Shown here: in pieces, positions 59,520-62,695 of the stretch
Position numbering within the stretch: position 1 is the first letter of the stretch
Layout of the letters: each line of letters begins with the position of its first letter
Assembly: GCA_002716385.1 (NCBI GenBank)
Contig: PBAX01000003.1
Coordinates: 1-64,000 of the forward strand
Length of the DNA stretch: 64,000 nucleotides
Direction of reading: 5' to 3'
From: Phycisphaerae bacterium
Lineage (GTDB): Bacteria; Planctomycetota; Phycisphaerae; Phycisphaerales; SM1A02
The notes under the pieces: generated by a model
Told to the model about the DNA's origin: nothing
Seen by the model: the letters and a program-made list of their open reading frames with translations, nothing else
Databases searched by the model: none
Translations under genes and position numbers: made by a program

Positions 59520-61058
59520 TTGCGTGAATCGGTTAGTGTTCAACCCGTGCACGGTTCAGATACAGCTTCCGGCAACGATGGAAAGCCAGCCAAGCGGCTT
59601 TCGCTGTTCGTTCTGGCGATGATGAATGTCGCGGTGGTCGTCGGCCTTGAGGGCTTGCCGACCATGAGCAATTATGGCCTGAGCCTGATCGTCATCTACG
59701 CTTTCTTTGCGTTGATCTTCTTTCTTCCTGTTGGTCTCACGGCCGCCGAACTCGGTGGAGGATGGCCGGCGGAGGGGGGTGTCTACAACTGGATCAAGGA
59801 GGCCGTTGGCGAGCGATTCGCGTTCGTTGGCATCTGGTGCCAGTGGATGCAGATCGTCGTGTGGTATCCGACCGTGCTGGCGCTCTGTGCGACTTCGATC
59901 GCTTACATGTTCAATCCCGAATACGAGAACTATGCCTGGTTCGCTGTTCCGATCATGCTGATCGTCTTCTGGTTCTCGACCGTCATCAATTTCCGCGGGC
60001 TCAATTTCAGTGGGCTGTTGACCACGGTCTGTCTGTATGCAGGCACCTTCATACCGGTGGTGCTGGCAATTGGCTTCGCGGTATGGTGGCTTGCCAGCGG
60101 GCATGAGAGCTACATTCCACTGACCTTCGATGCTCTGTTCGACTTCACGCCGGACAGGCCCGGCCAGAAGGCTGCGTCCTCGGAGTCGGTGCTCGGCTCG
60201 CTCGTGGCCGTGGTGGTCGTGTTTTCGTTTCTCTCCGGGCTCGAAGTCAATGCCGTTCACTTCAGGCGAGTTCGGAACATGCAGCGGTCGATTCCCGTGT
60301 CATTGCTCATTTCAGGCGTTCTAGTGCTGGTGATCTCGATCCTGGGATCGTTGAGTGTCGCTGTTCTGGTGCCGTTGGCGGAGCTCGACCTCACGGCCGG
60401 GACCCTTCAGGTGTTCCAGAAGGTGTTCGCGACGCTCGAGATTCAGTGGCTTCTTCCGGTCATCGCATTCCTCGCGCTCTTTGGAATGATCGGCCACATC
60501 ATGGTCTGGGTCATCGGACCGACGGAATCACTTCGTGTCGCGGCCGATGACGGGGTCATTCCACCCATTTTCCAGAAGACCACTCGTGGCGGCGCTCCCC
60601 GAAACGTGATGCTGATCCAGGCAGTTGTCGTTTCGCTTCTATGTCTGCTGAATCTGGCACTCGACATGAACAGGGTCTTCTATGTCCTGACGATCATTTC
60701 GGCCCAGATCTACCTGGTCATGTACGCCCTGATGTTCATATCCCTGATTCGCCTGCGCGTCATACAGCCGAACGTGGAGCGGCCATTCAGAATCCCCGGC
60801 GGCATTTTCGGCGTATGGCTGGTCGGTGGCGTCGGTTTGCTTGGATGCATCGCGGGCATCGTCTTCGGTTTCTTCCCGCCCTCGCAGACTGAGATCGAGA
60901 TGCCGGCTTCCACGCTGATTCCACTGGTGTCGATCGGATTCGTCGTCTCCGTATCGCTTCCATTCATATTCTTCCAGTGCCGCAATCCCGAATGGGGCAA
61001 GAACAGCCAGCTGCCCAGGGCTGAGGACACGAGGAAGCGTTGGATGAGAGGCGACTGA
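59520..61058 (+). CDS. APC-superfamily amino acid transporter
   Basis: A 512-residue protein read from a TTG at 59520 with AGAGG upstream; GTG codons at 59535 and 59550 are possible but have no ribosome site. About 12 membrane helices are visible, with the APC helix-1 unwound segment (VVVGLEGLPTMSNYGLSLI) and GLTAAELGGGWPAEGGVYNW. The pattern resembles glutamate:GABA antiporter-type carriers. The stop overlaps the next start (TGATG), so it is probably co-expressed with the sulfotransferase-like and aminotransferase-like genes. The substrate is probably an amino acid or amine. Confidence 0.92.
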   Translation: MRESVSVQPVHGSDTASGNDGKPAKRLSLFVLAMMNVAVVVGLEGLPTMSNYGLSLIVIYAFFALIFFLPVGLTAAELGGGWPAEGGVYNWIKEAVGERFAFVGIWCQWMQIVVWYPTVLALCATSIAYMFNPEYENYAWFAVPIMLIVFWFSTVINFRGLNFSGLLTTVCLYAGTFIPVVLAIGFAVWWLASGHESYIPLTFDALFDFTPDRPGQKAASSESVLGSLVAVVVVFSFLSGLEVNAVHFRRVRNMQRSIPVSLLISGVLVLVISILGSLSVAVLVPLAELDLTAGTLQVFQKVFATLEIQWLLPVIAFLALFGMIGHIMVWVIGPTESLRVAADDGVIPPIFQKTTRGGAPRNVMLIQAVVVSLLCLLNLALDMNRVFYVLTIISAQIYLVMYALMFISLIRLRVIQPNVERPFRIPGGIFGVWLVGGVGLLGCIAGIVFGFFPPSQTEIEMPASTLIPLVSIGFVVSVSLPFIFFQCRNPEWGKNSQLPRAEDTRKRWMRGD

Positions 61059-61792
61059 TGTCCCGGATCATCGCGATGTGGTCGGGGCCTCGCAACATCT
61101 CAACGGCGATGATGAGGTCGTGGGAGAACAGGCCTGACACGATTGTCTGGGATGAGCCACTCTATGCCGCCTTTCTGCACAGAACGGGTGTCGATCATCC
61201 AGGCCGGGACGTGATTCTGAAGTCCCATTCGAATGAGATCGACTATGAGGCGGTCGCTTCGCGTCTGGTCGATGCACAGGGAAGCGAGATCTTCTATCAG
61301 AAGCACATAGCCCATCATCTTCTGGAGGACATGGATCGATCATGGATGGACCATCCGGATGTGGTTCATTGCTTTCTCATCAGGGATCCGAGAGAAGTCA
61401 TCCTCTCGCTCCATCATCGTTTTCCCGAGATGACCCTTCGCGATACCGGGCTGCCTCAGCAGTTGGAGATCTTTCTTCGTCGGCGGGACCGGTCCACAGA
61501 AATCCCGCCAGTCGTGGATGCACGCGATGTTCTGGAGAATCCTCGTGGTACGTTGGAGGCGTTGTGCGGCAGGCTGGACATACCATTCCATGATGCGATG
61601 ACCTCATGGCCCTCGGGGCCCAGGGAGTCGGACGGAGCCTGGGCGGATTGGTGGTACGACTCCGTTCGAGCGTCGACGGGTTTCGCGGCCTGGGTTCCAA
61701 GAGAGGGCGAGGTTCCGGACCATCTTCTTCCAGTCCTGGAGACCTGCCAGTCGATCTATGAAAACCTGAAGCAACATCGGATCAGGAGTTGA
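61058..61792 (+). CDS. Sulfotransferase-like P-loop protein
   Basis: A 244-residue protein from the ATG at 61058 (GAGAGG upstream; the codon shares a base with the previous stop). MWSGPRNISTAMMRSWENRP is the 5'-phosphosulfate-binding loop, and VVHCFLIRDPREVILSLHHR the 3'-phosphate-binding segment, both typical of PAPS-dependent sulfotransferases. The catalytic base is not obvious. Plants carry a fusion of this type of domain with a class IV aminotransferase; here the two genes are adjacent, 3 nt apart. The acceptor is unknown. Confidence 0.85.
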   Translation: MSRIIAMWSGPRNISTAMMRSWENRPDTIVWDEPLYAAFLHRTGVDHPGRDVILKSHSNEIDYEAVASRLVDAQGSEIFYQKHIAHHLLEDMDRSWMDHPDVVHCFLIRDPREVILSLHHRFPEMTLRDTGLPQQLEIFLRRRDRSTEIPPVVDARDVLENPRGTLEALCGRLDIPFHDAMTSWPSGPRESDGAWADWWYDSVRASTGFAAWVPREGEVPDHLLPVLETCQSIYENLKQHRIRS

Positions 61793-61795
61793 GGG

Positions 61796-62695
61796 ATGCT
61801 GCAGACATTTGACGAGCGAAATCGTGACCTGATGGTGAACATCAACGGCAAGCTTTCCCATCGCGATGAGGCCGGAGTCAGTCCGTTCGATTCGACCGTC
61901 CAGGGGGGGGATGCGGTATGGGAAGGGCTACGGGTCTACGACGGGAAGATCTTCCGCCTAGAGCGGCATCTCGATCGTCTTCGCAATTCAGCGGAAGCGG
62001 TTGCCTTCGTGGACATACCGTCACACGAGGAGATCATTTCCGAGATACGCCGCACACTTGAGGCCAATGGCATGACGGATGGTGTGCATATCCGACTGAC
62101 GTTGAGCAGGGGGCTCAAGCTGACCAGTGGCATGGATCCCAGATTGAACACCTCTGGATCCACGTTGATCGTTCTGGCTGAACACAAGCCGCCGGTCTAT
62201 GACAAGAGCGGACTCAAGCTCAAGACGAGTTCGATACGACGCTTTTCGCCGGATCAGCTCGATCAACAGATCCACTCGTGCAATCTCCTTCAGTCGATCA
62301 TGGCCAAGATCGAGGCCAACGCGGCCGGTGCGGACGATGCCTTGATGCTCGATGCAAGGGGATTCATTGCCGAAACCAACGCCACTCATCTGTTCTTCGT
62401 GCATGGCGAGGTCGTCACCACATCACAAGTGATCGCATGTCCGGAGGGCGTTACGAGATCCGTCGTGCTCGAACTATGCGAACGGAACGGGATAGCATCC
62501 AGAGAAGGCGATTTCGAGCTTGATCATGCCTATTCCGCGGACGAGGTCTTCTGTACGGGGACAATGGGAGAGCTTGCGCCGGTGACCGAGATAGACGGTC
62601 GGATGATCGGTGAGGGCGACATTGGGCCCATGACTATGAGGCTTTCCGGTTTGTTCGAGGAGTGCGTTCGGTCAGAGGCGGAACCGGTTCTCTGA
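61796..62695 (+). CDS. Class IV aminotransferase homologue with His in place of the PLP lysine
   Basis: A 299-residue fold type IV PLP-enzyme homologue. SPFDSTVQGGDAVWEGLRVY and FRLERHLDRLRNSAEAV are the N-terminal signature; ALMLDARGFIAETNATHLFF and EVFCTGTMGELAPVTEIDG follow. The expected catalytic Lys lies in the segment IxSxNLL: D-amino acid aminotransferase has DIKSLNLL, but here it is QIHSCNLL with His160 (codon 62273-62275). The enzyme may be non-catalytic, or use another residue. It is preceded by the sulfotransferase-like gene. It is not safe to call it IlvE. Confidence 0.87.
   Translation: MLQTFDERNRDLMVNINGKLSHRDEAGVSPFDSTVQGGDAVWEGLRVYDGKIFRLERHLDRLRNSAEAVAFVDIPSHEEIISEIRRTLEANGMTDGVHIRLTLSRGLKLTSGMDPRLNTSGSTLIVLAEHKPPVYDKSGLKLKTSSIRRFSPDQLDQQIHSCNLLQSIMAKIEANAAGADDALMLDARGFIAETNATHLFFVHGEVVTTSQVIACPEGVTRSVVLELCERNGIASREGDFELDHAYSADEVFCTGTMGELAPVTEIDGRMIGEGDIGPMTMRLSGLFEECVRSEAEPVL

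Follow-up and report, generated by a model that had tools for sequence, protein, structure and literature searches.

A class IV aminotransferase homologue that carries His at the position of the Schiff-base Lys is a conserved bacterial protein, and there is strong evidence that it forms a functional pair, acting in one pathway, with a sulfotransferase of the Sulfotransfer_5 family. Both genes lie in the 64,000-nucleotide stretch analysed here, which we call the window (positions 1 to 64,000 of contig PBAX01000003.1 of a Phycisphaerae bacterium, whose genome comprises 2.8 Mb in 29 contigs). Co-occurrence and fusion of the two in about ten phyla point to an unstudied two-part enzyme. The features of the pair are given below, with residues numbered along each window protein; BCAT stands for branched-chain aminotransferase and PLP for pyridoxal 5'-phosphate.

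61058..61792, + strand: Sulfotransfer_5 (PF19798) sulfotransferase, the almost obligate partner (175.5 bits, cut-off 23.2)
61088..61105, + strand: P11-R12-N-I-S15-T16, predicted 5'-phosphosulfate loop of the sulfotransferase (in 47 sequences, P11, R12 and S15 do not vary)
61382..61408, + strand: R109-D-P111...S117, predicted 3'-phosphate motif of the sulfotransferase (R109 and P111 invariant, S117 in at least 90%)
61796..62695, + strand: His-type class IV aminotransferase homologue, 299 amino acids (Aminotran_4, PF01063; 158 bits, 3.6e-46)
61976..61978, + strand: Arg61, in the PLP-phosphate Arg column (R60 of E. coli BCAT); Arg in 116/117 His-type proteins
62117..62128, + strand: Lys108-x-Thr110-Ser111 motif, its K108 special to Lys-less relatives
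62273..62275, + strand: codon CAC, encoding His160 of the motif QIHSCNLL, in the Schiff-base Lys column by alignment with Lys-type relatives
62372..62374, + strand: Glu193, in the pyridine-nitrogen Glu column (E194 of E. coli BCAT); 117/117 His-type proteins
62453..62455, + strand: Thr220 of the G-x-T-R motif, in the PLP-phosphate Thr column; 117/117 His-type proteins

The first-pass annotation of this DNA had read the CAC codon as a replacement of the catalytic Lys by His in a gene that is not decaying, and both parts of that claim hold. Ordinary relatives within the phylum read IKSLNYL at this site, and His160 aligns with their Lys; alignment with Lys-type relatives, a check along the lines that the annotation had proposed, places no alternative Lys of the window protein in the catalytic column. 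A protein search recovered close relatives with 54-82% identity in 41 of 294 Planctomycetota genomes, and the site reads I-H-[SH]-x-N or V-H-H-x-N in every full-length planctomycete relative checked. Patterns drawn from two stretches of the protein outside the Lys/His column returned at least 584 relatives when run against the GTDB species genomes. His occupies the column in all 80 of the best of these, which span Planctomycetota, Poribacteria, Latescibacterota, Gemmatimonadota, Chloroflexota, Bacteroidota, Acidobacteriota, Verrucomicrobiota, Calditrichota and Gammaproteobacteria; no relatives were found in viral contigs. Of 135 aligned proteins, with a few genomes represented twice, 117 have His in the catalytic column, eight Asn and ten Lys. 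A maximum-likelihood tree, built with a small Lys-type sample and a midpoint root from which the direction of change is inferred, separates each of the three types from the rest by a single well supported branch and groups the His type with the Asn type, from which it is nonetheless a separate clade (support 99/98). The His and Asn types thus have a single origin each. The substitution is no chance event: with its invariant His, its single clade and its retained PLP-pocket residues, the His-type protein is a conserved family and not a product of decay.

The cofactor pocket is largely preserved around the altered column. Guided by R60, E194, T222, K160, Y96 and R98 of E. coli BCAT (PMC9309667), we found the columns of R61, E193 and T220 kept in the His type with a single exception at R61. 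The second phosphate column, T256, holds Thr in 114 of the 117 proteins and Ser in the rest, and the substrate Arg column (Arg100) is kept in all 117. The remaining substrate positions have changed: the column of Tyr96 in E. coli BCAT holds His98, and the other BCAT substrate Tyr positions hold Gly or Asn (37) and Leu or Gln (164). Near-invariant residues have been gained as well, namely K108-x-T-S111, E129-x-K131 and R148. K108 is found in 116/117 His-type and 8/8 Asn-type proteins and K131 in 116/117 and 6/8, as against 0/10 Lys-type proteins in either case; S111 occurs only in the His type (116/117). In the Asn type, the Glu193 column holds Ser or Thr in all eight members. The window protein therefore has the domain and fold of class IV and its PLP-phosphate and pyridine-nitrogen residues, and lacks its Schiff-base Lys. 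Judged by these residues, the His type resembles a B6 site in which the catalytic residue has changed and the substrate side has been remodelled to be more polar and probably anion-binding. Because practically no member has lost the PLP-phosphate or pyridine-nitrogen residues, the pocket argues for non-covalent binding of PLP or pyridoxamine 5'-phosphate (PMP) and not for loss of the cofactor; for the same reason, the possible PLP independence raised in the first-pass annotation is not established.

The sulfotransferase gene lies 3 nucleotides upstream of the window's aminotransferase homologue, as a separate gene and not fused to it, and the two families keep company from genome to genome. 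PF19798 is encoded in all 41 His-type Planctomycetota genomes versus one of 253 others (Fisher 1.6e-49), and among 247 Acidobacteriota genomes, 17 carry the His type, 17 the sulfotransferase and 16 both, so that the sulfotransferase is found in 16/17 His-type genomes versus 1/230 others (Fisher 5e-23); these values ignore shared ancestry and are descriptive only. For these two phyla, the counts bear out the pairing of the conserved His with the sulfotransferase that the annotation had asked to see. No sulfotransferase was found in the His-type acidobacterial genome G468 or in any of 14 control genomes (0/14). The lone extra planctomycete PF19798 (G052) and the extra acidobacterial sulfotransferase (G514) each adjoin an Asn-type protein. 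In both loci (L089 and L237, one from each phylum), the Asn-type gene comes first and the sulfotransferase second, opposite to the usual arrangement; these are the only sulfotransferases found without a His-type protein in the genomes of the two surveyed phyla.

The association also survives physical separation. The genes are non-adjacent in Poribacteria and several planctomycetes, and in nearly every such case tested the sulfotransferase is encoded elsewhere in the genome; the exception is G302. The only His-column relative in G220, which is excluded from the 41 planctomycete pair genomes, is very divergent (L088:1222-2145, with the site SHDNNQ and several pocket substitutions), and in this genome without a sulfotransferase it may be a derived or decaying copy. 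At the other extreme, both halves are joined in a single open reading frame (ORF) at four loci, planctomycete ones included (L039, L085, L101 and L102), which supports the natural fusions that the annotation had invoked with reference to plants. In a model of one fusion (mean predicted local distance difference test score, pLDDT, 85; predicted template modelling score 0.55, too low for reading off how the two domains are arranged; from 17 sequences), the homologous domain matches the folds of 7z79, 5mqz and 5e25. Long open frames had suggested many more fusions; of the loci examined, just these four are true one-frame fusions, and the rest are high-GC open frames. Since the genes are nearly always found together, whether adjacent, fused or unlinked, the evidence for one pathway is strong, and near-obligate co-occurrence and fusion together support the functional pair that had been proposed from the window.

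The partner itself belongs to its family by profile, fold and both nucleotide-binding motifs, in agreement with the annotation's reading of it as a sulfotransferase-like protein that binds 3'-phosphoadenosine 5'-phosphosulfate (PAPS). An AlphaFold2 model (pLDDT 96.5) matches 5wrj, 4gox and 4gbm with Z scores of 14.4, 14.3 and 14.2; among the top folds are human tyrosylprotein sulfotransferase (TPST) and the CurM and olefin-synthase (OLS) sulfotransferases, with root-mean-square deviations of about 4 Å over 209-217 residues. A sequence profile search of the PDB returned only the CurM and OLS domains (4gbm and 4gox, at 4e-8 and 6e-7). The P-R-N-x-S-T loop and the R-D-P...S motif are conserved across the 47 sequences. 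Adenosine 5'-phosphosulfate (APS) kinase is needed for making PAPS; of the 41 planctomycete pair genomes, 40 encode it, as against 146 of the 253 others (p 4e-8), and the window genome has it too. On a Dolichospermum plasmid, the annotated gene that comes directly after a Sulfotransfer_5 relative without an aminotransferase neighbour (L098:5986-7914) is that for adenylyl-sulfate kinase (cysC). These motifs, the fold, the co-occurrence with APS kinase and the cyanobacterial cysC neighbour make it likely that the sulfotransferase depends on PAPS.

Among known proteins, the best PDB match of the His-type protein in sequence and fold is an aminotransferase-like protein of Variovorax paradoxus (7z79; 216 bits by phmmer), of which an N174K mutant has also been deposited (9j32). 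The two share the absence of the Schiff-base Lys, H98, K108 and an N-terminal D-x-R-N extension. They differ in that the Variovorax protein has Asn for the His and Ser for the pyridine-nitrogen Glu and falls in a separate clade, whose members are encoded mostly in operons for amino-acid transport that lack a sulfotransferase gene; with His160 and Glu193, the window protein is not of the Asn type. Asn-type homologues annotated as 'aminotransferase class IV' also occur on plasmids (L093-L100; e.g. L095:8959-9873) of Ruegeria, Paracoccus, Agrobacterium, Pseudomonas savastanoi and Pantoea, mostly in amino-acid ABC transporter operons and in some cases with a chloride channel protein and proC. BCATs and D-amino-acid aminotransferases (5mqz, IlvE 1i1l and D-AAT 1daa) share the fold and most cofactor-binding residues with the His type, but in the latter the catalytic Lys is His, the substrate Tyr columns are altered and the K-x-T-S and E-x-K motifs are new. 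A Lys-to-His replacement in aminotransferase relatives has a precedent in the sugar 3-dehydratases ColD, E1 and SpnQ, in which PMP is retained and the His acts as an acid/base (PMC8987622). By contrast, these enzymes are of fold type I, act on nucleotide sugars and have no sulfotransferase, whereas the window protein is of fold type IV by sequence and structure and not of fold type I; the likeness is one of analogy, not kinship. The CurM and OLS sulfotransferase domains, which match the window partner in profile and fold, lack an aminotransferase homologue as partner and are embedded in polyketide synthases. Plant branched-chain aminotransferase-like proteins combine a sulfotransferase-like and an aminotransferase-like part in the domain order of the planctomycete fusions, and we take them to carry the SKIHHNN motif of those fusions, which is a lead and not evidence for kinship or for His at the Lys column. 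Searches of the open-access literature found no paper on the Lys-less family or the Variovorax structures and none naming Arabidopsis At3g05190 or At5g27410. Structures of Lys-less class IV proteins already exist; the His type paired with a sulfotransferase is, within reach of that literature, undescribed.

The overall reading that we favour, tentatively and at a little short of an even chance, is that a PAPS sulfotransferase and a non-covalent B6 partner using His160 make up one enzyme system. The sulfotransferase would move sulfate from PAPS onto a small hydroxy or amino compound, either creating a leaving group or giving a product that is sulfonated. The His-type partner would bind PLP or PMP without a covalent link, so that an external aldimine would form directly between cofactor and substrate; His160, by analogy with ColD and E1, would serve as the general acid/base, and the protein would make the sulfated compound undergo elimination, replacement or isomerisation. 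As we prefer to see it, the pair would depend on PAPS to make an amino acid that is sulfonated or modified with sulfur in some other way. Precedents exist for parts of this scheme: CurM and the olefin-synthase sulfotransferases activate their substrates by sulfonation (PMC10946740), and a diatom metabolic model lists a 2-aminoacrylate sulfotransferase in cysteate formation from PAPS (PMC7990286). A B6 enzyme holding aminoacrylate beside a sulfotransferase would suit a cysteate-type reaction. That the two parts cooperate to produce an amino acid with a sulfonate or another sulfur modification, for example by C-sulfonation of B6-bound 2-aminoacrylate to cysteate, in many bacterial phyla and possibly in green plants, is a more specific proposal that we regard as somewhat unlikely.

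Several points weigh against this scheme. The substrate, product and cofactor of the pair are deduced rather than observed, the parallel with ColD crosses folds and is an analogy only, and the co-occurrence statistics take no account of shared ancestry. Clustering of neighbouring ORFs at 41 planctomycete loci, 80 multi-phylum loci and 18 unlinked sulfotransferase loci found no conserved third gene near the pair in these roughly 140 related loci. The Asn-type sisters without Glu193 show that the scaffold can drift from PLP chemistry, and the His-type partner may be non-catalytic or not a B6 protein at all. In that last case, the aminotransferase-like half would have lost its B6 chemistry and would bind another small anionic ligand or act as a binding or regulatory subunit, with the sulfotransferase doing all the catalysis. 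The loss of the Lys throughout the clade, joined in the Asn-type sisters by loss of the pyridine-nitrogen Glu, is consistent with such a role, as are the altered BCAT substrate Tyr columns (37 Gly, 98 His and 164 Leu) and the near-obligate partner. However, nearly all members retain Glu193, Arg61, Thr220 and Thr256, and a pyridine-nitrogen Glu should drift if PLP were gone; further, the genes are often unlinked, hence tight co-expression is not required. We consider this explanation doubtful, though worth taking seriously.

A different division of labour would have the sulfotransferase make an O- or N-sulfated end product, such as a sulfated amino acid or osmolyte, from an acceptor that its partner supplies or isomerises by a Lys-free B6 reaction. 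The resemblance to O-sulfotransferases of the TPST/CurM type would fit, and with no further shared genes the product could be final; but the acceptor is hypothetical, and Lys-less B6 isomerases are, to our knowledge, not an established class, which leaves this version unlikely. It is more improbable still that the Schiff base has simply moved to conserved Lys108 or Lys131, keeping the protein a covalent PLP enzyme. Both residues are new in the Lys-less clade and absent from all ten Lys-type proteins, but neither lies in the catalytic column, alignment with E. coli BCAT would put both near the substrate side, a place better suited to binding an anionic group of the substrate, and an invariant His at 160 would then be unneeded. 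Finally, the gene could encode an ordinary transaminase whose substitution does no harm, or it could be a decaying copy. This would agree with the overall fold and the 38-42% identity to Lys-type enzymes, and the second class IV gene of the window genome, which has the Lys, makes redundancy possible. Against this stand the invariance of the His across phyla, the strong constraint on a single clade and the dedicated partner, and ordinary transamination is not expected of a PLP enzyme without the Lys; the conservation already contradicts this explanation, which we judge highly improbable.

If the favoured scheme of a sulfotransferase and a Lys-free B6 partner is true, planctomycetes, acidobacteria, poribacteria, latescibacteria, bacteroidetes, gammaproteobacteria and others, about ten phyla in all, harbour a fold type IV B6 family that works without the class-defining Lys and with a dedicated sulfotransferase. 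Were the pair to make a sulfonated amino acid jointly, it would represent an unrecognised sulfur route common to many bacterial phyla and possibly to green plants. The closest curated models for the His-type protein are branched-chain aminotransferases, all below their cut-offs, and pathway reconstructions that adopt such labels may therefore be wrong in hundreds of genomes. Should the plant fusions belong to the His-type family, work on the pair would also help to show what some little-studied plant genes do. The pair is small and open to direct testing.

In the window, the pair follows a third gene in the same direction, giving the order GadC-like APC antiporter, Sulfotransfer_5 sulfotransferase, class IV aminotransferase homologue, all on the + strand.

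59520..61058, + strand: GadC-like APC amino-acid antiporter (PF13520; TIGR03813 below its cut-off)

The end of the APC gene and the start of the sulfotransferase gene share one base (TGATG) at 61058, an overlap with the sulfotransferase start codon that is special to the window genome among the loci examined. The antiporter is closest to glutamate/γ-aminobutyrate antiporter models, far below their cut-offs. The annotation had linked the pair to an amino-acid transporter, and an APC gene does adjoin it here; that link is not supported, since neighbour clustering at the roughly 140 related loci shows the sulfotransferase as the one conserved neighbour, and as a candidate part of the system the transporter was dropped, with none nearby in the related loci searched for APC. 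It is a local operon member and not part of the conserved system. Neighbouring genes, tried as clues to the pathway, yielded only conserved antisense shadow ORFs and lineage-specific synteny: gshA in Woeseiaceae-type loci, hisF in Poribacteria, and a topoisomerase and a cytidine deaminase in one planctomycete family. A gshA-like glutamate-cysteine ligase gene faces the pair tail to tail at L163, L165, L167 and further loci of the Woeseiaceae type, which may be no more than synteny.

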